From contig JAHBTL010000044.1 of NCBI GenBank assembly GCA_019638615.1, forward strand, positions 1-57,437: a DNA stretch of 57,437 bases, written 5' to 3'. Source of the stretch: Chitinophagaceae bacterium. GTDB lineage: Bacteria; Bacteroidota; Bacteroidia; Chitinophagales; Chitinophagaceae. The number at the start of each line of letters is the position of its first letter. Position 1 is the stretch's first letter. Both the position numbers and the translations under genes were made by a program. Positions 2,181 through 55,200 of this stretch are shown here, one piece after another. Below the pieces are notes generated by a model. The model did no database searches. It saw only the letters and a program-made list of their open reading frames with translations, and had not been told where the DNA came from.

Positions 2181-2306
2181 ACCCGTATATTTAAAAGATG
2201 AAGAAATCAGCTTTTCCTGCAGGTACGGTAGAAAATGAATATACAAACAAAATGCCGTTTTAAAACGGCAACAGGAGCAATTTTACACAAATAAAACATT
2301 TACCGG

Positions 2307-2867
2307 TTATTCGCCCCAGCGATACGTTTGGATATTGAAGTTGCACAGGTCCAATACCCTGTCCGTAACCGTGGCGGCTACTTCCTCTACAGTGTGGGGA
2401 CGGCTGTAAAAAGACGGTGTGGCCGGGCATATAATGCCACCGGCAAGCGTAACCGTTTCCATGTTTTTAATATGAACCAGGTTATAGGGAGTATCTCTGA
2501 TAATACAAACCAGCTTACGGCGCTCCTTTAAAATAACATCGGCGGCACGGGTTATAAGATCGTTTGAAATACCTCCTGCGATCCTGCCCAGCGTACCCAT
2601 TGAACAGGGAACAATGATCATGGTATCAAACTGTCCCGATCCGGATGCAAAAGGAGCGTTAAAATCTGTTTTTTCGTAAATCTTAACATTATAATGATCG
2701 ATGCCGGTTTCGCCCAGCTCAGTTTTCCATACCTCCCTTGCATTGTCTGAAATAACAACGCACAGCTCATCCCATTGATCAGGCATTTGCAGTAATTTTT
2801 CAATTACCTGCTTTGCATATATGGAACCGCTTGCACCCGTAATGGCTACTACAATTTTTCGCTTCAA
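2307..2867 (-). CDS. ubiX: Flavin prenyltransferase UbiX, TTG start
   Basis: UbiX attaches a dimethylallyl unit to FMN to make prenyl-FMN, the cofactor of UbiD-type decarboxylases. The N-terminal KIVVAITGASGSIYAKQ is the FMN/phosphate-binding signature, and VVISDNAREV, IIVPCSMGTLGRIAGGISND and the RDTPYNLVHIKNM segment follow in family order. The frame is open to 2966 without a convincing start there. The TTG at 2867 gives 186 residues and begins LKRKIVVAI, just where homologues begin with MKRKIVVAI, so TTG initiation is inferred. The upstream gene is divergent with only 35 bp between the two starts. No UbiD is present in the window. Confidence 0.85.
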   Translation of the reverse strand: MKRKIVVAITGASGSIYAKQVIEKLLQMPDQWDELCVVISDNAREVWKTELGETGIDHYNVKIYEKTDFNAPFASGSGQFDTMIIVPCSMGTLGRIAGGISNDLITRAADVILKERRKLVCIIRDTPYNLVHIKNMETVTLAGGIICPATPSFYSRPHTVEEVAATVTDRVLDLCNFNIQTYRWGE

Positions 2868-2875
2868 TTGTGAGT

Positions 2876-2883
2876 TATATTTG
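2876..2883 (+). promoter_or_regulatory. Candidate -7 promoter element
   Basis: TATATTTG matches the Bacteroidota TAnnTTTG -7 consensus and lies 20 bp ahead of the preferred ATG (2903) of the thioredoxin-like gene, in the 35-bp gap to divergent ubiX. No good -33 TTTG is seen at normal spacing. Confidence 0.35.
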
Positions 2884-2902
2884 TGTAAATAAACGAAATC
2901 AA

Positions 2903-3466
2903 ATGCAAAGATCCGGCATTTTACTCTGTTTTTGGCTGGCAGCTTTTGCGCTGCCTGCACCGGCAAAGCAAACTGTTTATATTACAACCGACACTTCCAT
3001 TGCAGGCGCTGATAAAATGAACTGGCTTACCCTGGAGGAAGCCGCTGCCAAATTAAGCGAAAAGAAAAAGCCTGTACTGATAGACCTTTATACCGACTGG
3101 TGCGGATGGTGTAAGGTAATGGACCGGAACACTTATTCCAACAAAAATGTGATCCAATATATTGAAGAGCACTTTTACCCGGTAAAACTAAATGCCGAAA
3201 CGAAGGATACGCTTACATGGCGGGGCAGGCAGTTCACCTATAACAGCGCTTATAAAGTGAATGAATATGCCGTGGCGCTCACGGGAGGAAATCTATCCTT
3301 TCCTACTACTGTTATTCTGCCCGCGGACGGTTCTGCCCCACAGGCAATTCCCGGTTACCTGAAAACACCGGATATGGAACTGATCCTTACCTATTTTGGA
3401 GAAGGACATTACGGTAAAACGCCATTTGATGCTTACTACAAAGCATTCGCAGCAAAATGGAAATAA
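2903..3466 (+). CDS. Exported thioredoxin-like protein, WCGWC motif
   Basis: A 187-residue protein from the ATG at 2903. The open frame reaches back to 2870, but the Met at 2903 starts a signal peptide (MQRSGILLCFWLAAFALPAPA). After it comes a Thioredoxin_7/DUF255-like domain: the helix WLTLEEAAAKLSEKKKP, the strand VLIDLYTDWCGWC with both redox cysteines, and a late SFPTTVIL cis-Pro motif. Length fits the family. It is probably a periplasmic thiol-disulfide protein. It overlaps the unneeded upstream extension of ubiX but not the ubiX gene as called here. Confidence 0.8.
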   Translation: MQRSGILLCFWLAAFALPAPAKQTVYITTDTSIAGADKMNWLTLEEAAAKLSEKKKPVLIDLYTDWCGWCKVMDRNTYSNKNVIQYIEEHFYPVKLNAETKDTLTWRGRQFTYNSAYKVNEYAVALTGGNLSFPTTVILPADGSAPQAIPGYLKTPDMELILTYFGEGHYGKTPFDAYYKAFAAKWK

Positions 3467-3514
3467 ATTTCAGTAGTATTACAATATGAAAATCAAAGGC
3501 CTCGTTATATATCC

Positions 3515-3576
3515 GGTTTTTCATAGGATATTGGATTTAAAACGGGGCAGGATTTCTATCCAGCCCTTTTTTATTG
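3515..3576 (+). repeat. Copy 1 of a 62-bp repeat with terminator-like hairpin
   Basis: This copy and the one at 3700-3762 share nearly all bases, starting GGTTTTTCATAGGATATTGG. Each ends in a stem of GGGC-A-GGAT paired with ATCC-A-GCCC followed by TTTTTTATT. It may terminate the thioredoxin-like gene that stops at 3466. The 522-bp stretch 3467-3988 has no gene I can support. Confidence 0.7.
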
Positions 3577-3699
3577 AATTTACTTACCAGTCCCACTCAA
3601 ATAATATTTTTATAATATGCGTCGCCCTGCCTAAGTTTATCTTAAAAAAATTCATTTTACCCGATGCAACGTTTCTATCCAGTGTATAGTCTAATATTT

Positions 3700-3762
3700 G
3701 GTTTTTCATAGGATATTGGATTTAGAAACGGGGCAGGATATCTATCCAGCCCTTTTTTATTG
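3700..3762 (+). repeat. Copy 2 of the 62-bp repeat with terminator-like hairpin
   Basis: Second copy, 185 bp downstream of the first, with the hairpin GGGCAGGATA/TATCCAGCCC and a T-tract. A third partial copy, CTTTTCATAGGATA, lies at 3854-3867. Another fragment, TTTCTATCCAG, lies at 3671-3681, so the space seems to contain several decayed copies. Confidence 0.7.
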
Positions 3763-41925: not shown

Positions 41926-43836
41926 TCAATAATGCCATCTTACAAACGCTTCCATGGCTGCATAGCGGGTTAAACCAAGTTTTGCATATAAATCTGCTGT
42001 ATTGGCATTGCGCTCTTCTGCCCTTTGCCAAAACTCACGTGAGTCGGTTCCCTGGAAAGGTACAGAATCTTTTTGCGACTGGTGAATGAATATACCAAAG
42101 CGTTTTTTCAATACCTGCTCAGGGCTCATGGGTATTGCCATTTCTATTTCCGTAATGTCCCACTCCTGCCAGGCACCTTTGTATAACCACACCCAGCAAT
42201 CTTTTATCCATTCATCGCCTTCTGCTTTTATTCTTTTTAAAGATTCAAATACAATTTCAAGACAAACCTTGTGGGTGCCATGCGGATCGGCGAGGTCGCC
42301 GGCGCAATACACCTGCTGCGGCTTAATTTCGCGAAGCAATTGCATGGTCAGCTTCACATCCTCCTCTCCCATCGGCTTTTTCTCAATGGTCCCGGTTTCG
42401 TAGAATGGCAGGTTCTGAAAATGGGCGCGATCATCTGTAAGCCCCACATAGCGACAGGTGGCTTTGGCTTCGCATCTCCGAATCAATCCTTTAATGTTTC
42501 TTATTTCAGCGGTATCCGATTGCCGCGATTTTTTCTGTGCGAAATACCCGCGCGCCTCTTTGGATATCTTTTTCGATGTGGAATCATCCACACCAAACAT
42601 CTCATCAAAGCCAACAGCGAAATCCAAAAAGCGGGTTACAAATTCATCGGTAACGGCAATATTGCCGGATGTTTGATAAGCCACATGCACTTCATGCCCC
42701 TGATCGTGCAGACGTTGAAAAGTTCCACCCATTGATATAATATCATCATCAGGATGTGGAGAGAAAATGATCACACGTTTCGGAAATGGCGTTGACCTTT
42801 CAGGATGATTCGGCACAGGAACGGGGCCTGGTTTACCGCCCGGCCATCCTGTTATGCTATCGCGAAGCATGTAATATACACGCAGGTTTATTTCATAAGA
42901 GTCGCCATGTTCAACCAGCAAGTCGCCAATGCCGTTATCCATGTAATCGCTGTTGGTAAGACTTAATACCGGTTTGTTCAATTTCAATGCAGTATTAATT
43001 ACAGCCCGGCGTATCATTTGGGGTGTCCATTCCGCTTCGCCTGTAAGCCAGGGTGATTTAAAACGGGTAAGCTCTGAAGCCGCCAGTTCATCCAGGATAA
43101 AAACGCAATCATCGTGATTTTGCAGCACGGATGCAGGAATGGATTCTGTAATATTATCTTCCACCGAAGCTTTAACAACAGGAGCCTTAATTTGTCCCCA
43201 TGCAAGTAAAACAATTTTTTTAGCTTTCATTATAGTACCAATTCCTGCCGTTATAGCAAGCCTGGGTACCTGGGCTATATTCGCAAACTCGTATGAGTTG
43301 GCAAGGCGTGTAGAATTTTCAAGTGTTACAAGCCTTGTTTTTGAATAAATACTTGAGCCGGGTTCATTAAAACCAATATGCCCGTTAGTACCAATACCCA
43401 ATACCTGGAGATCAATGCCGCCCGCTTCATCTATCATTTGCTCATAACGGGCAGCATGTGCTTTTACTTCTTCTTTTTTCCACTCCCCGCTTGGTATATG
43501 GCAGTTCGCCTGGTCGATGTCAATTTTATCAAACAGGTTCACCTTCATAAAACGGTGATAGCTTTGGATGGCATTTTTATCGATCGGGTAATACTCGTCA
43601 AGATTAAAAGCAATTACATTTTTAAAGCTCAACCCCTCTTCTTTATGCATTCTTGCTAATTCGGCATAAAGTGTTTTGGGAGTTGACCCGGTCGCAAGCC
43701 CCAGTACACAATGCTGCCCTGCGGCTTGTTTTTGCCTGATCAATTTTGCTATTTCCTGTGCTGCGAATTTCGAACCTGCTTTAAAATCGGGAAAAATATT
43801 ACAGGGAATTTTTTCAAAAGAATCAACCATGTTCAT
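41926..43836 (-). CDS. nagB: Glucosamine-6-phosphate deaminase fused to a PIG-L deacetylase
   Basis: A 636-residue two-domain protein from the ATG at 43836. N-terminal NagB (about 1-265): GLATGSTPK, NLDEYYPI, GIGTNGHIGFNEPGS and SVEDNITESIPAS, the full active-site set converting glucosamine-6-phosphate to fructose-6-phosphate plus ammonia. C-terminal PIG-L/LmbE-like zinc deacetylase (about 370-580) with FSPHPDDDIISMGG and DPHGTHKVC as metal ligands. The fusion would let one protein remove an acetyl group from an amino sugar and then deaminate it, though the deacetylase substrate is not established. An upstream Met at 43896 lies beyond a -7-like element, so I do not use it. It stands alone with its own terminator. 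Confidence 0.88.
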   Translation of the reverse strand: MNMVDSFEKIPCNIFPDFKAGSKFAAQEIAKLIRQKQAAGQHCVLGLATGSTPKTLYAELARMHKEEGLSFKNVIAFNLDEYYPIDKNAIQSYHRFMKVNLFDKIDIDQANCHIPSGEWKKEEVKAHAARYEQMIDEAGGIDLQVLGIGTNGHIGFNEPGSSIYSKTRLVTLENSTRLANSYEFANIAQVPRLAITAGIGTIMKAKKIVLLAWGQIKAPVVKASVEDNITESIPASVLQNHDDCVFILDELAASELTRFKSPWLTGEAEWTPQMIRRAVINTALKLNKPVLSLTNSDYMDNGIGDLLVEHGDSYEINLRVYYMLRDSITGWPGGKPGPVPVPNHPERSTPFPKRVIIFSPHPDDDIISMGGTFQRLHDQGHEVHVAYQTSGNIAVTDEFVTRFLDFAVGFDEMFGVDDSTSKKISKEARGYFAQKKSRQSDTAEIRNIKGLIRRCEAKATCRYVGLTDDRAHFQNLPFYETGTIEKKPMGEEDVKLTMQLLREIKPQQVYCAGDLADPHGTHKVCLEIVFESLKRIKAEGDEWIKDCWVWLYKGAWQEWDITEIEMAIPMSPEQVLKKRFGIFIHQSQKDSVPFQGTDSREFWQRAEERNANTADLYAKLGLTRYAAMEAFVRWHY

Positions 43837-43873
43837 GTGGTAATTGTTTGAAGTTAGTTTAGTATAGTGTGTG

Positions 43874-43881
43874 CTAAGATA
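43874..43881 (-). promoter_or_regulatory. Candidate -7 element of nagB
   Basis: TATCTTAG on the minus strand differs from TAnnTTTG at one base and lies 38 bp ahead of the preferred ATG. A TTG about 20 bp further upstream (in CTTGTTTAATG) fits as the -33 element. Confidence 0.35.
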
Positions 43882-43978
43882 ATTTCTATTTTTCATTAAA
43901 CAAGAAGCTATCCCCTGTAAAACACTCTTTTTTCTATGGTTTTATAAGGCAAACGATTGCAGAAGCGTCAATCCGTGC

Positions 43979-44665
43979 TTATAAAGTAATAGCAGCGTTA
44001 TCTATTACCTGTCCGCGTTCTGTCCGGATGGTTCTTGCAGGGAATTTACTGATAACACGGTAATCGTGTGTAGCCATTACTATTGCTGTGCCAAAGTTTT
44101 TGCATATCTGAAAAAGCAACTGCATGATCTCATCTGAAGTTTCCGGATCGAGGTTGCCGGTAGGTTCATCTGCCAAAATAAGTTTGGGTGAATTGAGTAA
44201 AGCACGGCCTACATCTACGCGCTGCTGCTCGCCGCCCGACAGTTCAAATGGGAATTTGAACCCTTTTGTTTTTAATCCTACTTTTTCCAGCACGTCATTG
44301 ATCTTATCTTCAATCAGCTTTTCATCCTTCCAGCCGGTAGCGCGCAGCACAAATTTTAAATTATCATGTACATTCCGGTCTGTAAGCAATTGAAAATCCT
44401 GGAACACAATACCCAGGTTCCTCCTTAAAAAGGGGATTTTCTTCCAGTCCATATCCCTGAGTTTGTAGCCTACCACCGTACCTTCTCCTTCCCTCAGTTT
44501 CAGTTCGCCGTACAGCGTTTTCAGCAGGCTTGATTTACCGGCACCTGTTTTACCCACCAGGTAAACAAACTCCCCTTTGTTCACTTTAATATTTACGTCT
44601 TCCAGTATAAGCGAATTGCCCTGGTATATATTGGCATGCTCTAATTCAAGAATAACTTCAGCCAT
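43979..44665 (-). CDS. ftsE: Cell division ATP-binding protein FtsE
   Basis: A 228-residue ABC ATPase that pairs with FtsX to regulate septal peptidoglycan hydrolases at the division site. Walker A is [12 protein letters not shown] (near 38-49), the Q-loop is [10 protein letters not shown], the signature is [17 protein letters not shown], Walker [14 protein letters not shown] and the H-loop [23 protein letters not shown] is the FtsE-type spacing between Walker A and the Q-loop. No ftsX is nearby, which is common in Bacteroidota. LolD and MacB ATPases are alternatives; the lack of a permease gene beside it and the sequence favour FtsE. Confidence 0.85.
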
Positions 44666-44701: not shown

Positions 44702-44782
44702 AGATTTACATCCCAGCAAATAACGCATTCTTTAGTTTAGTATTGAGACAAATGACTTTTTTTATTAAAACTAAGCAAATAG

Positions 44783-44812
44783 TTGTAAAACTAATTAATT
44801 AGTTTATATTTG
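44783..44812 (+). promoter_or_regulatory. blaI promoter with 18-bp operator palindrome
   Basis: TTG (44783-44785) and TATATTTG (44805-44812) are 19 bp apart, a very good Bacteroidota promoter. The space between is almost wholly the perfect palindrome AAACTAATTAATTAGTTT (44788-44805), the likely site at which the BlaI-type repressor shuts off its own operon. Confidence 0.7.
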
Positions 44813-44830
44813 TTGAATAAATATGTTGAT

Positions 44831-45202
44831 ATGACCCCAGGAAAAAATCTTACCAAAGCCGAAGAACAGATCATGCAGGCTTTATGGAAGCTGGAAAAAG
44901 CTTTTTTGAGGGAATTGGTAGAGGCCCTGCCTGTTCCCAAACCGCATCAAAATACAGTAGCGACCATTTTAAAAATATTGGTTGAAAAGGAGTTTGTGGG
45001 AATAGAAGTATTTGGCAGAATGCACCGGTATTACCCGCTAATCAGTAAAGAAGCGTATTCAAAATCGACCATGAAAAGCATTGTAAAAAGCTATTTTGAA
45101 GGCTCGTTCAGCAATGCCGTTTCTTTCATGGTAAAAGAAAACAGCCTGAGCATTGAAGACCTTGAGCTTTTGCTAAAAGAACTGAAAAAGCAAGGAAAAT
45201 AG
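44831..45202 (+). CDS. BlaI/MecI-family transcriptional repressor
   Basis: A 123-residue BlaI/MecI/CopY-type winged-helix repressor from the ATG at 44831 (the open frame begins at a TTG inside the -7 element, so it is not used). LTKAEEQIMQALWKLEKAFLRELVEALP is the first helix pair, HQNTVATILKILVEKEFVGIE the recognition helix and wing, and the C-terminal helix (about 85-123) is the dimerisation arm cut in BlaI on induction. The M56 protease gene follows 52 bp downstream, the standard BlaI-BlaR1 order. Confidence 0.92.
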   Translation: MTPGKNLTKAEEQIMQALWKLEKAFLRELVEALPVPKPHQNTVATILKILVEKEFVGIEVFGRMHRYYPLISKEAYSKSTMKSIVKSYFEGSFSNAVSFMVKENSLSIEDLELLLKELKKQGK

Positions 45203-45254
45203 AAGCATCCGCCTCTGTTTATCCCTATTTGAAACCAGACAAAAAATCCCCCGC

Positions 45255-47882
45255 ATGCTTGCAGTTGCATATTATTTACTGAAGGTCATTATTTGTTCAG
45301 GCATCCTGTACGGCTACTACCGCCTGGCGCTTCATAACAAAATATTTCACCGGTGGAACAGGTTTTACCTGCTGGGAGCAGTGATAATGAGCCTCAGCTT
45401 CCCGTTAATTACGATCAGCATATTTCATACGCCGGCAGCAGACGATGGGCAGGTAATACGTTTGCTGAACGTGGTTACTACCGGCGATGCATACATACAG
45501 GATGCCAACAGCAGCGCTCCATTTAAATTGACAGACGAAGCGCTTGTCTCTTTTGCTTACATCGCAGTTTCCCTGGTCTTTCTGCTCGTATTGCTTCAAA
45601 CACTTGTGCGTTTGAGAAATATTGTAAAGCACCATCCTACTCAAAAAGTTGAGGGAATTTATTTTGTTGACACCGATGCAAAAGGAACGCCTTTCTCATT
45701 TTTCAGCTACATTTTCTGGAACAGGAATATCAGCATCGACTCCGAAACCGGGCGTAAGGTTTTTTTGCATGAATTAGCGCATGTAAAAGAAAAACACAGC
45801 GCCGACAGGCTGTTCATGAATATTACGATGGTCTTTTTTTGGAGCAATCCTTTCTTCTGGCTTATAAGACGTGAAATGAATATGATCCACGAATTTATTG
45901 CCGACAGCGAATCGGTAGACAACAACGATACGGCGGGATTTGCAGCCATGATCCTGCAGGTAGCTTACCCCCAGCGCAGTTTTGGACTTACCAGTAATTT
46001 TTTCTCGTCATCTATTAAACGCCGGATCCTGATGTTAAAGAAAATGCAGACACCCCGCACCAGCTATATCAGCAGGGTACTTGTATTGCCCTTACTGGCC
46101 ATTGTTTTTGTGGCATTTACCATACGCACGAAACAACTGGCCGCTGCTGAAAACCTGCCTCTTGCATTAGAGAAGAAGATCAATATAATAATTGACGCGG
46201 GACATGGAGGAACAGATCCTGGCGCTAAAGGCAAAAACGGGATTGCCGAAAAAGATATTACGCTCTCGCTTGCAAAAAAAATACAGGCGCTCAATAGCAA
46301 CAGCCGCGTTAATATTATTCTTACCAGGTCAGAAGACGTTTTTCAGCCGGTTAAAGAAAAAGTAGATTTTTCAGTAAAGCAAAAAGCCGATGCTTTTATT
46401 TCCATTCATGTGGCGGCCACGCCACGTCCGTCCAATACCGGGAAAGGCTTTGAGATCTACCTGTCAAGGAAAATGGATACCCTTTCCACACATGCTCAAA
46501 AAGCCCGCCTGCTGGCAAGTATAATAACCGAAGAGATCGCAAAGACATATACCATTGCAACGGAAATTAAACGGCGGATACCACAGGGAATATGGGTGCT
46601 GGATGCCGACCAGATCAACTACCCTGCGTTACTGATAGAATGCGGGTATATTACGGATAGCAAAGATTTGGGATTCCTGCTGAACGAAAAAAACCAGGAA
46701 ACCGTGGCGGGAGACATCCTGAAGGCCATTGAAAGATATGCGAAAGCAGTAGAAGAAAATACCGGGGCTTTTATCGAACAACCCAACCAGGAACACGTTG
46801 TGGAAATTGAAGCGTCAGGGCTTGACATCTCAAGCTTTATTAAAAATCAGTCTGATGGTACAACCCCGTTACTGGTAGTGAATGGCAAGGAAACCAAACA
46901 ACTTCCGCAAGGAGGCATACTGCTGGCAAGCTCACCCAAAGCCACATTCAAAGGAACCATCTATCCAAAAAACAATGCAAAAGCGCTGGCAAAATATGGC
47001 GAAGCCGCCAGGTTTGGAGCTTTGATAATTGAAGAAATAGCTAAAGAACCAACCGCCGGGAAAACCGGGGGGAGTGTAACCCCCAAATTAGAAACTGGTA
47101 ACAGAGCCATCCTGTTTGATGCAAAAGACAAAAGCGATGCCACCCCTCCGGTAACAGACAGCGTTTCTCCCAAAATAAAATCGATAGATGTAACGAACGA
47201 TGGCAATGTAATTATTATTTATAAAAACGATAAGGCAGAAAAGATCAGCAGGCAGGAAGCTGTAAAAAGAAAGCTGCTCAATAACGAACCATCCCCGCCA
47301 ACGGCTCAGGAAGGTATACGATTAAGAGGTATATCTCCGGGAAATGAACCCGTTTATTTCATAGATGGCAAAGAAGCCACCAAGGCAGAGGTTGATCAAC
47401 TGAATCCCCGCGACATTGAAGAAATAAGTGTATGGAAAGACCTGAACGCTATTGAAAAATACGGTTTAAAGGCGAGGAATGGAGCTATTGACATTCGAAC
47501 AAAAAATTTAGAAGGTAAATTTTTGCCAGAGGTATCGGTAGTTGCTTACGGTAACAAGATATTCACTAAGGCGGAACAGGCACCGACCTTCCCTGGCGGC
47601 GATCTTGCATGGGCAAGGCATATATCAAGGGCAATTAACAAGGACCTATCGAAATTAACAGAAGAGAATAAGCAGGGAACCTGCATAGTGCGATTTGTTG
47701 TAAGCACCGATGGAACCGTTTCGGATGTTGAGGCATTAACTATGAAAGGAACCCAACTGGCAAAATCAGCTGTTGCAGCAGTTGAAAACGGACCAAAATG
47801 GAACCCTGCGGTACAAAATGGCAAAGTAGTAAAAGCGTACCACTCTCAACCGGTAAGCTTTACTTTTTCTACTGAGCATTAG
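45255..47882 (+). CDS. M56 sensor-type metalloprotease fused to N-acetylmuramoyl-L-alanine amidase and TonB_C
   Basis: An 875-residue membrane protein. Residues 1-120 hold three or four membrane helices. The M56/BlaR1-type zinc protease has the HELAH motif at 172-176 and NMIHEFIADSES near 209-220, with another helix at 273-290. Then a complete amidase_3 domain (308-495) follows: metal ligand H317 in IIIDAGHGGTDPGA, E332, H385 in FISIHVA, and catalytic E462 in LIECGY. After about 505 come two segments resembling TonB-receptor plug text (AKYGEAARFGALIIEE; IEEISVWKDLNAIEKYG...RNGAIDIRTK), then a TonB_C domain (805-873, IVRFVVSTDGTVSDVEAL). In BlaR1 a penicillin-binding sensor sits where the amidase is here. 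It is co-transcribed with blaI; it would cleave the repressor upon a cell-wall signal. Confidence 0.85.
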   Translation: MLAVAYYLLKVIICSGILYGYYRLALHNKIFHRWNRFYLLGAVIMSLSFPLITISIFHTPAADDGQVIRLLNVVTTGDAYIQDANSSAPFKLTDEALVSFAYIAVSLVFLLVLLQTLVRLRNIVKHHPTQKVEGIYFVDTDAKGTPFSFFSYIFWNRNISIDSETGRKVFLHELAHVKEKHSADRLFMNITMVFFWSNPFFWLIRREMNMIHEFIADSESVDNNDTAGFAAMILQVAYPQRSFGLTSNFFSSSIKRRILMLKKMQTPRTSYISRVLVLPLLAIVFVAFTIRTKQLAAAENLPLALEKKINIIIDAGHGGTDPGAKGKNGIAEKDITLSLAKKIQALNSNSRVNIILTRSEDVFQPVKEKVDFSVKQKADAFISIHVAATPRPSNTGKGFEIYLSRKMDTLSTHAQKARLLASIITEEIAKTYTIATEIKRRIPQGIWVLDADQINYPALLIECGYITDSKDLGFLLNEKNQETVAGDILKAIERYAKAVEENTGAFIEQPNQEHVVEIEASGLDISSFIKNQSDGTTPLLVVNGKETKQLPQGGILLASSPKATFKGTIYPKNNAKALAKYGEAARFGALIIEEIAKEPTAGKTGGSVTPKLETGNRAILFDAKDKSDATPPVTDSVSPKIKSIDVTNDGNVIIIYKNDKAEKISRQEAVKRKLLNNEPSPPTAQEGIRLRGISPGNEPVYFIDGKEATKAEVDQLNPRDIEEISVWKDLNAIEKYGLKARNGAIDIRTKNLEGKFLPEVSVVAYGNKIFTKAEQAPTFPGGDLAWARHISRAINKDLSKLTEENKQGTCIVRFVVSTDGTVSDVEALTMKGTQLAKSAVAAVENGPKWNPAVQNGKVVKAYHSQPVSFTFSTEH

Positions 47883-50934: not shown

Positions 50935-53900
50935 CTACTGGGTTATTACCGGAATGATTACTCTCTTATCATCTGCTGCAAGCTCTACAAAATATTCTCC
51001 TTTGGCAAACGGCATCAGGTTCAGATCGTTCACCGTATTCACAATGGTGTTGACCAGCACCCTTCTTCCAATCCTGTCGTATACCGTTACTTTAATGGGT
51101 TTTGAAGGCAATTTGGACAGAATGAGCTTAGCCAGGCCGTTACCGGGGTTGGGGGTTACTTTCACCCTGATATCACCTATATAAATATCGCCTGCCGGAA
51201 CAAAGAAGTAGGAGGCTTCGCCTATACATCCTGAACTTCCTGATGTTACTCTTACTGTGTAAGTTCCGTATCCGCGGGGCTTGTATTTTTTATTGGTAGC
51301 ACCGGATATCAGCACTCCTCCTTTGTACCACTGGTAAGTATCTGCATTGGCAGATACCAGCTCATTGCCCTGCTGGGTAATGGATGGCGTGGGAGCTGAG
51401 CCCATGATTACCACAATTTCATCGTATATATCTGCACCGCAACCGCTTACTGTTACATGATAAGTGCCTGAAGCAGACACAGCGATTGTTTGCGTGGTGG
51501 CGCCGGTGCTCCACAAATAGCCGGCACCGGGGTTGCCTGCATCCAGCACCAGTGCCGAAGAAGAGCAAACAGTAGTATCATTGCCCAGATTAACAGTTGT
51601 GGGCACTTCCATCACTGTTAATTCCAGTTCATCGCTGCCTGTACATCCGTTATGGTTAACGGTTACACCATAAGTGCCCGCTGTAAGCGCATTGATGGTT
51701 TGTGAAACCGCGCCGGTAGTCCATGTATAGGTAGCACCCGGATAACCGGCATCCAATACCAGGCTACTGCCCGAACAAATAGTGGTATCGTTGCCCAGTG
51801 AAACAGGGATGGTTGATATAACATTTACATCAATTTCACCATTGCCGCTGCAACCGCCTTGCGTAACGGCTACTGTATAAGTTGTTTGCCCTTCGCTTAA
51901 ATCCGGCTGTATCGTACGGGAGGTTTCGCCCGTGCTCCACAGGTAAGAAGCGCCGGGGTGGCCTGCATCCAGTATTAAATTACCACCTGTACATACCGTG
52001 GTATCATTACCCAGGTGTACCGTAAGATCAGATGAATAACTTATTACAATATTGTCAACATCTGTACAAATGCCGTTTGATACCGTTACACTGTAAGAAC
52101 CGGGAGCAGTCACTTCAATGGTTTGCGAAGTTTCGCCGGTGCTCCATGAATAGGTGGCACCCGGGTGCGCTCCCGCATCCAGTATCATACTCGTGCCATT
52201 ACAAAGCGTTGTATCGTTGCCCAGGTTTATGTCAATGCCCGATCCTGTTACAGTTACCGGTATTGTTACGGTATCAGCTTTATTATTGCTGTTGGTAACT
52301 ATCAATGTAACATTATAGGTACCTGCAGCAGCATAATCGTGTACAGGATTTCTTTGCAGCGCCCCTGCCGCAGGAGGGTATGCGTAGGTAACTACAGTGC
52401 CATCGCCAAAATCCCAGGTAAAGTTTCTGCGTGTGCCGCAGGCAAAAGTCGTATACCCGTCTGAAGTGAATTTAACCGAATAGGGCGGGCAGTTGGTTGT
52501 TTGTGAGTATACAAAATTCGCGTTTACCTGCTGCCTGGCACTGATCACAATCGTATCTCTTGCCGTACAGCCGTCTTTTACAACCGTTACCCAATAGGTA
52601 GCAGGATCTTTTATTAAAATAGAAGATCTGGGAGGGATAGCTGTATTATATCCTTCCAGCTCAGCAATAACAGGGTTGCTTTCCCATATAATACTGCTGG
52701 CTCCTGATATGCCTGTATTTAATGTATATACCCCGCAAGCGATCTCGTCGTCTGGACCCAGGTCTACCACAAGCGGAGTTGTATTGATCGTTACATTAAT
52801 AGTATCCCTGTCAAAGCAGCTTCCATTGCTTACTTCCACCCAATAGCTGTTGGTGGAGGATGCAACAATGGTTTGAGCAGTTTCACCTGTGCTCCACAAA
52901 TAGGTTGCTCCTGCATTGCCCGCGTCCAGCGTGAGCGATCCGCCCGAACATACGGTTGTATCATTTCCAAGGTTCACTGAAAGTGTGGAAGTATTCACCG
53001 TGATATTGATCTCATCATCGGCAGTACATGCCCCGTTGGTTACTGTAACCGAATAGGTACCGGCGGTTGTTACATTGATCGTTTGTGTAGTTGCACCCGT
53101 GTTCCACAAATACGTTGATCCCGTATTGCCGGCATCCAGTGTGGCGGAGCCACCTGTACAGATGGATCTGTCGGCGCCAAGATTTACTACCGGCGGGGTA
53201 CCGCTTACGGTTATATTAATGTCATCGCTGCCTGAACAGGAACCATCACCTACTATTACAGAATAATTACCGCCGGTGCTCACCGAAATGGTCCGGGTGG
53301 TTTCACCGGTACTCCACAAATAGGTTGAACCTTCATTACCTGCATCCAATACAGTGCCGGTACCTGTGCATATATTCCTGTCGGGACCCAGGTTTACTAC
53401 TACCGGCCCTGCATTCACAGTTACTGCAATGGTATCCCTGTCACTGCATGCGCCATTGGTTACTGTAACATGATACACACCTGATGTAGTTACATCGATC
53501 GTTTGAGTAATTTCTCCGGTACTCCACAGGTAAGTTGCACCCGTGTTACCCGCATCAAGGGTAGTAGTGCCGCCGCTGCAGATCGTCCTGTCGGGTCCCA
53601 GGTCAACCGATGGCCCGCCGCCTGTTACATTTATTACAACCGAAAAAGTATCTGATTTGGCAGAATTGGTTGTCACAATCAACTTCGCTGTATAGCTGCC
53701 TGTTGCTGCATAATCATGCGTAGGATTTTTTTGAGCATTCGTGGGTGGATCATATGTTACAACCGTTCCATCGCCGAAATCCCATATATATTTATCCAGG
53801 CTTCCGCAATTAATGGCAGACATATCGGTGAATTTTACTGAATATGGTCCACACGAAGTTGTTTGTGCATAACTAAATTCTGCATGAACAGCAGGTTTGG

Positions 53901-55200
53901 GATGCACAACAATGGTATCTCTTGCCTCACACCCGTTTTTAACCACTGAAACCCAATAAGTGCCAGAGTAGGGAGTAGAAGCTGTGGGGTTATTGGTAGG
54001 ACCGCCGAAGCCATCCACTGTGCCTCCCCAGGTAATGCTGGTGGCCCCGGTTACACCGGTATTAAATGTTACTATGCCGCCACAGGTTTCCCGGTCTGGT
54101 CCCAGGTCTACAGTGAACGCGGGGTTTACTGTAATATTTATACTTGCAACCGCATCAATGCCACACCTGGTTTTGGTTACGGTATAGGTAGTGGTAGAGG
54201 TTGGGGTAGCTACCGGGTTGTAAATATTGGGATTGCTCAGCCCGGCTGCAGGCGACCAGCTATAAGTAACTCCTGCTTCGTATCCCGCGTCTAACTGAAC
54301 ACTGTTGCCGGCGCAAATGGTTCTGTCTTCACCAAGATCGGGTGCAGCAGGACCGGAAGCAAAGGTTATGGTAATGGGTATCGTAATACCACCACCATCC
54401 CCTGTATTGGGATCTGAAACATTTAATTCAACGTCATAATCACCTTCTTCCGTAAAAGTATGAACGGGATTTTCAACATCGTACCAATCATAACTCGACG
54501 GACCATATATACTCCATGAATAATCAAGCGGATTGCCGTTACAATGTTTGGACAGGTTGTTAAACTGTACCTCCATGTTACCGCAGTTATTTAATACCGT
54601 ATACGTAAAATTTACAGCCAGCGCGGCGGTCACAATAATATTTACTTCATCTCTTGCCGTACAGGTTCCATTGCCTACTTCTACCCAATAGGTGCCGGTA
54701 GTGTTTACGTACCGGGAAGGATCCCCATTGCTGGAGGGATCATCCCATGTATAAGTTACTCCTCCGGGCACATTGGCCTGAAGCAAATAGCCTAAGCCCA
54801 GGGCTCCTGCGCAAAGTGTGGTATCCGGTCCTAAATCGGGAGTAAATTTTTCAAATGTTTTTATATACTTGGATTCGATTTTCGTACTCGTAGCGCCTCC
54901 CTGCGTGAGAATAGTAAGCACTACAGTAAAAGAGTCTTGCGAGTAATAAGTATGCTGGGGAGTGGGATTTGTATTGGTAATAACAGTGCCATCGCCAAAG
55001 TTCCATGTATAACTCACGATAGGGTCTCCCCCATCGCTTGTGGAAGTGCTGGTAAATTGCACGGCCAAAGGCGCACAGCCTGTGGTAACAGAGGCGGTGA
55101 AACCTGCAACCGCCGCAAGCGCATTTTTTTCTTTACCATCCGCAAATGAATTGATATACATCAACAAACTCACGGTCAGAAACAGTATAATTCTCTTCAT
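50935..55200 (-). CDS. Giant secreted PKD-repeat protein with T9SS sorting domain
   Basis: A 1421-residue surface or secreted protein. A signal peptide (1-20) is followed by four PKD domains, recognised by YTWNFGDGTVITN, VENPVHTFTEEGDYDVELNV, YIWDFGDGTVV and FTWDFGDGTVV. About twelve modules of 75-80 residues are of the type VNLGNDTTVCSGGSLTLDAGNAGATYLWSTGETAQTI, and the C-terminal type 9 secretion sorting domain (from KVTPNPGNG, about 1346) ends KRVIIPVITQ. The pattern is that of gliding or adhesion proteins carried by the Por system. Module copies differ by a few residues, so the array has probably grown by duplication. No partner genes are adjacent. The exact role (adhesin or filament) is not readable. 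Confidence 0.85.
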   Translation of the reverse strand: MKRIILFLTVSLLMYINSFADGKEKNALAAVAGFTASVTTGCAPLAVQFTSTSTSDGGDPIVSYTWNFGDGTVITNTNPTPQHTYYSQDSFTVVLTILTQGGATSTKIESKYIKTFEKFTPDLGPDTTLCAGALGLGYLLQANVPGGVTYTWDDPSSNGDPSRYVNTTGTYWVEVGNGTCTARDEVNIIVTAALAVNFTYTVLNNCGNMEVQFNNLSKHCNGNPLDYSWSIYGPSSYDWYDVENPVHTFTEEGDYDVELNVSDPNTGDGGGITIPITITFASGPAAPDLGEDRTICAGNSVQLDAGYEAGVTYSWSPAAGLSNPNIYNPVATPTSTTTYTVTKTRCGIDAVASINITVNPAFTVDLGPDRETCGGIVTFNTGVTGATSITWGGTVDGFGGPTNNPTASTPYSGTYWVSVVKNGCEARDTIVVHPKPAVHAEFSYAQTTSCGPYSVKFTDMSAINCGSLDKYIWDFGDGTVVTYDPPTNAQKNPTHDYAATGSYTAKLIVTTNSAKSDTFSVVINVTGGGPSVDLGPDRTICSGGTTTLDAGNTGATYLWSTGEITQTIDVTTSGVYHVTVTNGACSDRDTIAVTVNAGPVVVNLGPDRNICTGTGTVLDAGNEGSTYLWSTGETTRTISVSTGGNYSVIVGDGSCSGSDDINITVSGTPPVVNLGADRSICTGGSATLDAGNTGSTYLWNTGATTQTINVTTAGTYSVTVTNGACTADDEINITVNTSTLSVNLGNDTTVCSGGSLTLDAGNAGATYLWSTGETAQTIVASSTNSYWVEVSNGSCFDRDTINVTINTTPLVVDLGPDDEIACGVYTLNTGISGASSIIWESNPVIAELEGYNTAIPPRSSILIKDPATYWVTVVKDGCTARDTIVISARQQVNANFVYSQTTNCPPYSVKFTSDGYTTFACGTRRNFTWDFGDGTVVTYAYPPAAGALQRNPVHDYAAAGTYNVTLIVTNSNNKADTVTIPVTVTGSGIDINLGNDTTLCNGTSMILDAGAHPGATYSWSTGETSQTIEVTAPGSYSVTVSNGICTDVDNIVISYSSDLTVHLGNDTTVCTGGNLILDAGHPGASYLWSTGETSRTIQPDLSEGQTTYTVAVTQGGCSGNGEIDVNVISTIPVSLGNDTTICSGSSLVLDAGYPGATYTWTTGAVSQTINALTAGTYGVTVNHNGCTGSDELELTVMEVPTTVNLGNDTTVCSSSALVLDAGNPGAGYLWSTGATTQTIAVSASGTYHVTVSGCGADIYDEIVVIMGSAPTPSITQQGNELVSANADTYQWYKGGVLISGATNKKYKPRGYGTYTVRVTSGSSGCIGEASYFFVPAGDIYIGDIRVKVTPNPGNGLAKLILSKLPSKPIKVTVYDRIGRRVLVNTIVNTVNDLNLMPFAKGEYFVELAADDKRVIIPVITQ

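Follow-up and report, generated by a model that had tools for sequence, protein, structure and literature searches.

A BlaI–M56 gene switch of Chitinophagaceae with a peptidoglycan-amidase domain as its candidate sensor

Our analysis of a BlaI–M56 locus on contig C39 of a 7,180,285-base Chitinophagaceae genome (57,437 nucleotides in all, hereafter the window) reveals an M56 membrane protease that carries an Amidase_3 domain in place of the penicillin sensor of the BlaR1-type gene switch, which senses penicillin in staphylococci. The architecture, the predicted topology, both zinc sites, the operon, the operators, the conservation, and the repeated loss of the Glu of the amidase active site are read directly from sequence. 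On balance, we favor the reading that the locus is an autoregulated BlaR1-like switch, in which a CwlD-like Amidase_3 sensor in the periplasm would bind peptidoglycan and might, in most members, also cut it.

Table 1. Features of the BlaI–M56–amidase locus (positions in the window; residues of the fusion protein)
Feature	Coordinates	Strand	Basis or remark
FtsE-like ABC ATPase, divergent neighbor	43979..44665	-	best NCBIfam model FtsE TIGR02673, 236 bits, cut-off of 264.85 not reached
Operator 1, AACTAAGCAAATAGTT	44769..44784	+	tandem pattern, 0 mismatches, 0 expected in shuffles
Operator 2, perfect palindrome AACTAATTAATTAGTT	44789..44804	+	
Putative -7 box, TATATTTG	44805..44812	+	read from sequence
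BlaI-type repressor	44831..45202	+	Penicillinase_R 102.7 bits; MecI 1okr E 2.4e-8
M56 – Amidase_3 – plug-like – TonB_C fusion, 875 aa	45255..47882	+	
HELAH, residues 172-176	45768..45782	+	kept in 117/117 fusions
Second M56 motif, E213xxxD217	45891-45905	+	kept in 117/117 fusions
Last membrane segment, residues 272-290	46068..46124	+	hydropathy peak; helix in model
Amidase_3 domain, residues 311-493	46185..46733	+	zinc ligands H317, E332, H385
Glu E462 of Amidase_3 domain	46638-46640	+	present in window fusion
First plug-like segment, about residues 515-595	46797..47039	+	model secondary structure and reading of letters; matches no family by itself
Second plug-like segment, residues 680-754	47292..47516	+	SusC/RagA chains by phmmer; Pfam Plug below cut-off
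TonB_C domain, residues 803-870	47661..47864	+	52.4 bits, cut-off 24.6

The operon comprises the gene for the BlaI-type repressor, for which TTG at 44810 is an alternative start, and, after a gap of 52 bases, the gene for the fusion; it contains no beta-lactamase or PBP gene. The window also encodes, on the minus strand, a protein resembling glucosamine-6-phosphate deaminase but extended by an additional C-terminal domain (41926-43896; NF002557, 976.8 bits) and a 1421-residue repetitive surface-protein-like ORF (50935-55200), in which PKD-like repeats and a sorting-domain-like end were read from the letters.

The promoter of the operon is covered by tandem operators of the form AACTAN6TAGTT-N4-AACTAN6TAGTT (44769-44804; two 16-base units, 4 bases apart). 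Both the operator-like palindrome and the BlaI-type repressor described in an earlier note on this DNA are confirmed. The sequence TATATTTG fits TAnnTTTG, which we take to be the consensus of the Bacteroidota -7 box, and TTG at 44783-44785, inside and next to operator 1 and 19 bases before TATATTTG, is the would-be -33 box. Upstream regions of 111 BlaI genes contain the tandem with 0-1 mismatch in 62 cases and with 3-9 mismatches in 49, and none of 555 shuffles has fewer than five mismatches to it. The genome of the window, in which there are six M56 matches, contains the tandem (two mismatches or fewer) twice, only before two BlaI–M56 operons. Among family genomes, the exact tandem is present 44 times in 42 of 117, and its reversed control 0 times; 28 of these exact-tandem loci were examined, and they contain BlaI in 27 cases, M56 in 26, and an amidase in 15.

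The fusion protein has the domains that the earlier note had listed: an M56 protease with HELAH (Pfam Peptidase_M56, 37.8 bits; cut-off 31), a complete Amidase_3 domain (H317, E332, H385, E462), plug-like segments, and TonB_C. The alignment shows H172, E173, H176, E213, and D217 to be invariant in 117/117 fusions, with 41 residues from HExxH to ExxxD. The amidase domain has the Amidase_3 fold and aligns with solved amidase enzymes, including at the Glu position; Pfam gives no match in the window fusion to a penicillin-binding (class D beta-lactamase-like) sensor domain, the Amidase_3 domain being present instead. The proposal that an amidase takes the place of the BlaR1 penicillin sensor thus holds, with the domain located after the last membrane helix and accompanied by BlaI and operators. 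In particular, hydropathy and loop charge predict the M56 protease inside and the amidase sensor outside, consistent with the extra-membrane location first suggested, although the stretch just past the last membrane segment is slightly basic (K+R 3.6, D+E 1.3), a weak mark against an outside location. In structural comparisons, amidases filled the match lists and the M56 part of the model is weak, so the absence of BlaR1 from these lists carries no weight. A plug loop in the style of BlaR1 (EL1), which would lie between the second and third membrane segments, was considered and rejected: its conservation is nothing special relative to 16 non-fused relatives, and the model is not confident there.

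BlaI lies directly upstream in 112 of 117 fusions. In 114/114 BlaI sequences, the residue that aligns with MecI Phe102 is M, L, or F, as judged by alignment, and in the M56 part F249/F250 stand before a conserved KRR. GSF was rejected as a candidate BlaI cleavage site; the position aligned to the MecI site is six to seven residues further.

The M56–amidase architecture is common in one family, the Chitinophagaceae. Searching 394 family genomes with a profile built from 12 intact fusions (A1) gave some match in 285, a number that is high because M56 alone scores, and gave 113 rows spanning both domains among the matches listed. We confirmed 117 distinct fusions, of which at least 110 are in the 394 family genomes. 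Specifically, the 110 comprise 30 loci and 80 more that were fetched, each with both domains in one open frame; the remainder come from further genus members (three) and from named contigs (four, L090-L093). Duplicates, namely ten loci and one identical sequence, are excluded from these counts, and three genomes with fusion-like coverage (G183, G112, G155) were left out. Because profile A1 was built from intact members, a fusion whose zinc motif is destroyed could score lower and escape detection. A search of 395 phylum genomes at a strict threshold gave, among the matches listed, five rows with both domains, four in the family (including the genome of the window) and one outside (G637); a named fusion outside the family, again among the matches listed, is from Flavobacterium denitrificans (L093). 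Three apparent fusions from Firmicutes (L094, L102, L124) were rejected: the matches began before the amidase, yet the proteins are stand-alone and CwlD-like. Of the earlier note's refuting condition, an architecture both common and already characterised, only the first half applies: the architecture is widespread in its family, but the open-access PMC literature yielded no description of it.

The residues of the amidase zinc site are kept without exception, whereas the Glu at position 462, which we take to be the catalytic residue of the Amidase_3 family, is lost repeatedly. The zinc ligands H317, E332, and H385 are present in 117/117 fusions. Position 462 is E in 103 rows, Q in 5, A in 2, H, G, and N in 1 each, and unaligned in 4; by eye, Glu is present in two of the unaligned rows (L241, L242) and Ile in a third (L234), and the fourth (L210) was dropped from the count because its amidase is cut off. 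The Glu is thus kept in 105/116 fusions and replaced in 11/116. (The L210 frame, 2291-3715, reads as M56 followed by a half-amidase and then a LytTR-like end, and could be an assembly chimera.) Stand-alone amidases, 25 from the family and 75 from genome-contig loci, keep the Glu in 100/100 cases (92 by pattern, 8 by eye; Fisher's p = 0.001 for the difference, the rows being related), including one control, L124, that lacks one zinc ligand. The 11 Glu-less rows, among 118, correspond to 10 changes on the M56 tree, and are spread over 9 of the 48 genera or single loci; L254 and L264 count as Glu-keeping in this tally, and their sequences confirm Glu. Loss of catalysis with retention of the zinc pocket is the pattern expected of a binding sensor, and suggests an amidase domain that reads the cell wall instead of only cutting it. 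Of the two triggers first envisaged, binding or cutting of stem peptides, binding gains, since the cutting residue is missing in these 11 fusions.

Phylogenies indicate how the domain was joined and lost. The M56 tree (FastTree; several long branches) contains 168 rows, 119 with an amidase in the same frame, and requires 15 gains or losses of the amidase, at least 10 of them forced by well-supported branches. M56 proteins without an amidase occur inside the fusion clade, as in G011, a member of the window's genus that has lost the domain, indicating that the switch can do without it. On the amidase tree, 24 stand-alone amidases of the family fall outside a group (support 94) that unites the 116 fusions of the family with two further stand-alone genes, both of which adjoin BlaI–M56 genes. 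The first (L052, 7550-8365, genome G024; also one of the 100 controls) encodes a membrane-anchored Amidase_3 protein between ftsE and the BlaI–M56 operators and, because the tree places it in the fused group, may be a split-off sensor. The second (L243, 4048-4695; outside the 100 controls) is an amidase-like gene right after a fusion, with Gln in place of H317 and, by reading, a lipoprotein-like start. The fused amidases of Flavobacterium and G637 lie beyond the family group, where they cluster with a Chryseobacterium amidase that stands alone; on the M56 tree, the Flavobacterium protein clusters with its own tandem neighbor, which has no amidase. The Flavobacterium fusion is likely, with modest support, a separate join.

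We consider it unlikely, though worth weighing, that the fusion is instead an active hydrolase fixed to the inner membrane, with BlaI–M56 setting only its amount. All four active-site residues are present in the 105 Glu-keeping fusions, the amidase of G024 is a separate membrane-anchored gene beside BlaI–M56, and a divergent FtsE-like gene is present in at least 40/117 fusion loci from 19 genera (a lower bound, because some loci are short). In Escherichia coli, FtsEX-EnvC is reported to activate division amidases (PMC10268282, PMC12505981), a control that this adjacency recalls; the adjacency is no more than a hint. However, ftsE also adjoins three loci (G015, G024, G026) that have no amidase fusion and hence marks the locus rather than the domain, and the 11 members in which the Glu is missing but all zinc ligands are retained speak against a tethered enzyme. 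The favored sensor reading accounts for a zinc site that outlasts catalysis, for where the domain sits, and for the operon; an enzymatic role accounts for the intact majority. Both may hold, with an enzyme reporting its own substrate.

Less probable still is a role of the amidase solely as a wall anchor, with the plug-like and TonB_C part signaling through contact with an outer-membrane receptor. Local profiles detect TonB_C in 46/117 fusions and plug-like segments in 50/117, M56-TonB_C proteins without an amidase exist, and in some genus members the same operator precedes outer-membrane barrel ORFs. Specifically, 12 genus members contain 20 tandem sites (one mismatch or fewer), 13 of them at BlaI genes, and six of the other seven were examined: three (L315, L320, L322) precede, by about 12 bases, ORFs that encode CarboxypepD_reg-like and OMP_b-brl_3 domains, one (L321) lies 202 bases before a CarboxypepD_reg ORF, and two (L311, L325) lie 136-137 bases before redoxin/AhpC-TSA-like ORFs. 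In the genome of the window, a single operator (L308 1501; C15:34803) lies 9 bases before a CarboxypepD_reg ORF. The operators before outer-membrane barrel and CarboxypepD_reg ORFs (L308, L315, L320, L322, L321) possibly mark further targets. Against the anchor role, 33/117 fusions end within 40 residues after the amidase, so TonB_C is dispensable where the amidase is not, indicating that TonB_C is not essential to the fusion design. That the amidase is a decaying passenger without a role, as its 15 gains and losses, the repeated Glu loss, and one truncated chimera (L210) might suggest, is very improbable given zinc ligands in 117/117 and ten losses all at Glu, for which the chance would be about 4^-10 (assuming independence and equal mutability of four residues).

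The switch resembles known systems part by part. With BlaR1/MecR1–BlaI/MecI of Staphylococcus aureus and Bacillus licheniformis it shares a BlaI-family repressor, an M56 HExxH with ExxxD 41 residues on, and, as described for BlaR1 (PMC9834060), the domain order, a predicted cytoplasmic active site, and an extracytoplasmic domain after the last membrane helix; it differs in having Amidase_3 rather than a penicillin-binding domain, often followed by plug-like and TonB_C parts. With CwlD, CwlV, and AmiA/B/C the fused amidase shares the fold, the zinc triad, and, in most members, the Glu, but it is joined to a membrane protease. At about 190 residues, the fused domains are short and, judging from alignment lengths, lack the long insert in which AmiA/B/C are reported to carry an autoinhibitory helix (PMC10268282). 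Bacteroidota M56-TonB_C proteins (the paralog G000 C16 and G011) share the M56 core, the plug-like parts, and TonB_C, but not the amidase. A peptidoglycan dipeptide is reported to release BlaI/MecI by binding BlaI in the cytoplasm (PMC3305447); wall fragments are likewise the signal proposed here, but in the fusion the wall-binding fold belongs to a membrane protein.

By analogy with BlaR1, we infer a ligand, a signal direction, and a cleavage of BlaI; the role in the cell and the target genes proposed below are inferences as well. At rest, BlaI would occupy the two tandem operators over its own promoter, and the amidase, held by the last membrane helix, would use its zinc pocket to bind stem peptides of peptidoglycan, which most members could probably also cut. 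Septal wall hydrolysis or wall damage, for instance, would alter pocket occupancy, and the membrane helices would relay this change to the M56 site in the cytoplasm, where BlaI would be inactivated. With BlaI inactive, the operon would be expressed, as would, in some genomes, additional envelope genes preceded by the same operator. More tentatively, the protein could serve gene control as a direct peptidoglycan receptor: an amidase that has become a zinc-dependent binding sensor, in some lineages a catalytically dead substrate trap, would read the state of the wall next to ftsE and signal across the membrane, with M56 removing BlaI and the envelope, including outer-membrane barrels, being remodeled.

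To our knowledge, the signal sensed by many M56 receptors without a penicillin-binding domain remains open. A sensor with the fold of a wall enzyme, widespread in one family, with an invariant zinc site and a catalytic function that has repeatedly been given up, would provide one directly testable answer, namely, that BlaI allows bacteria to monitor their own wall polymer from the periplasm, and would be an example of one protease-repressor core fitted with different sensors.
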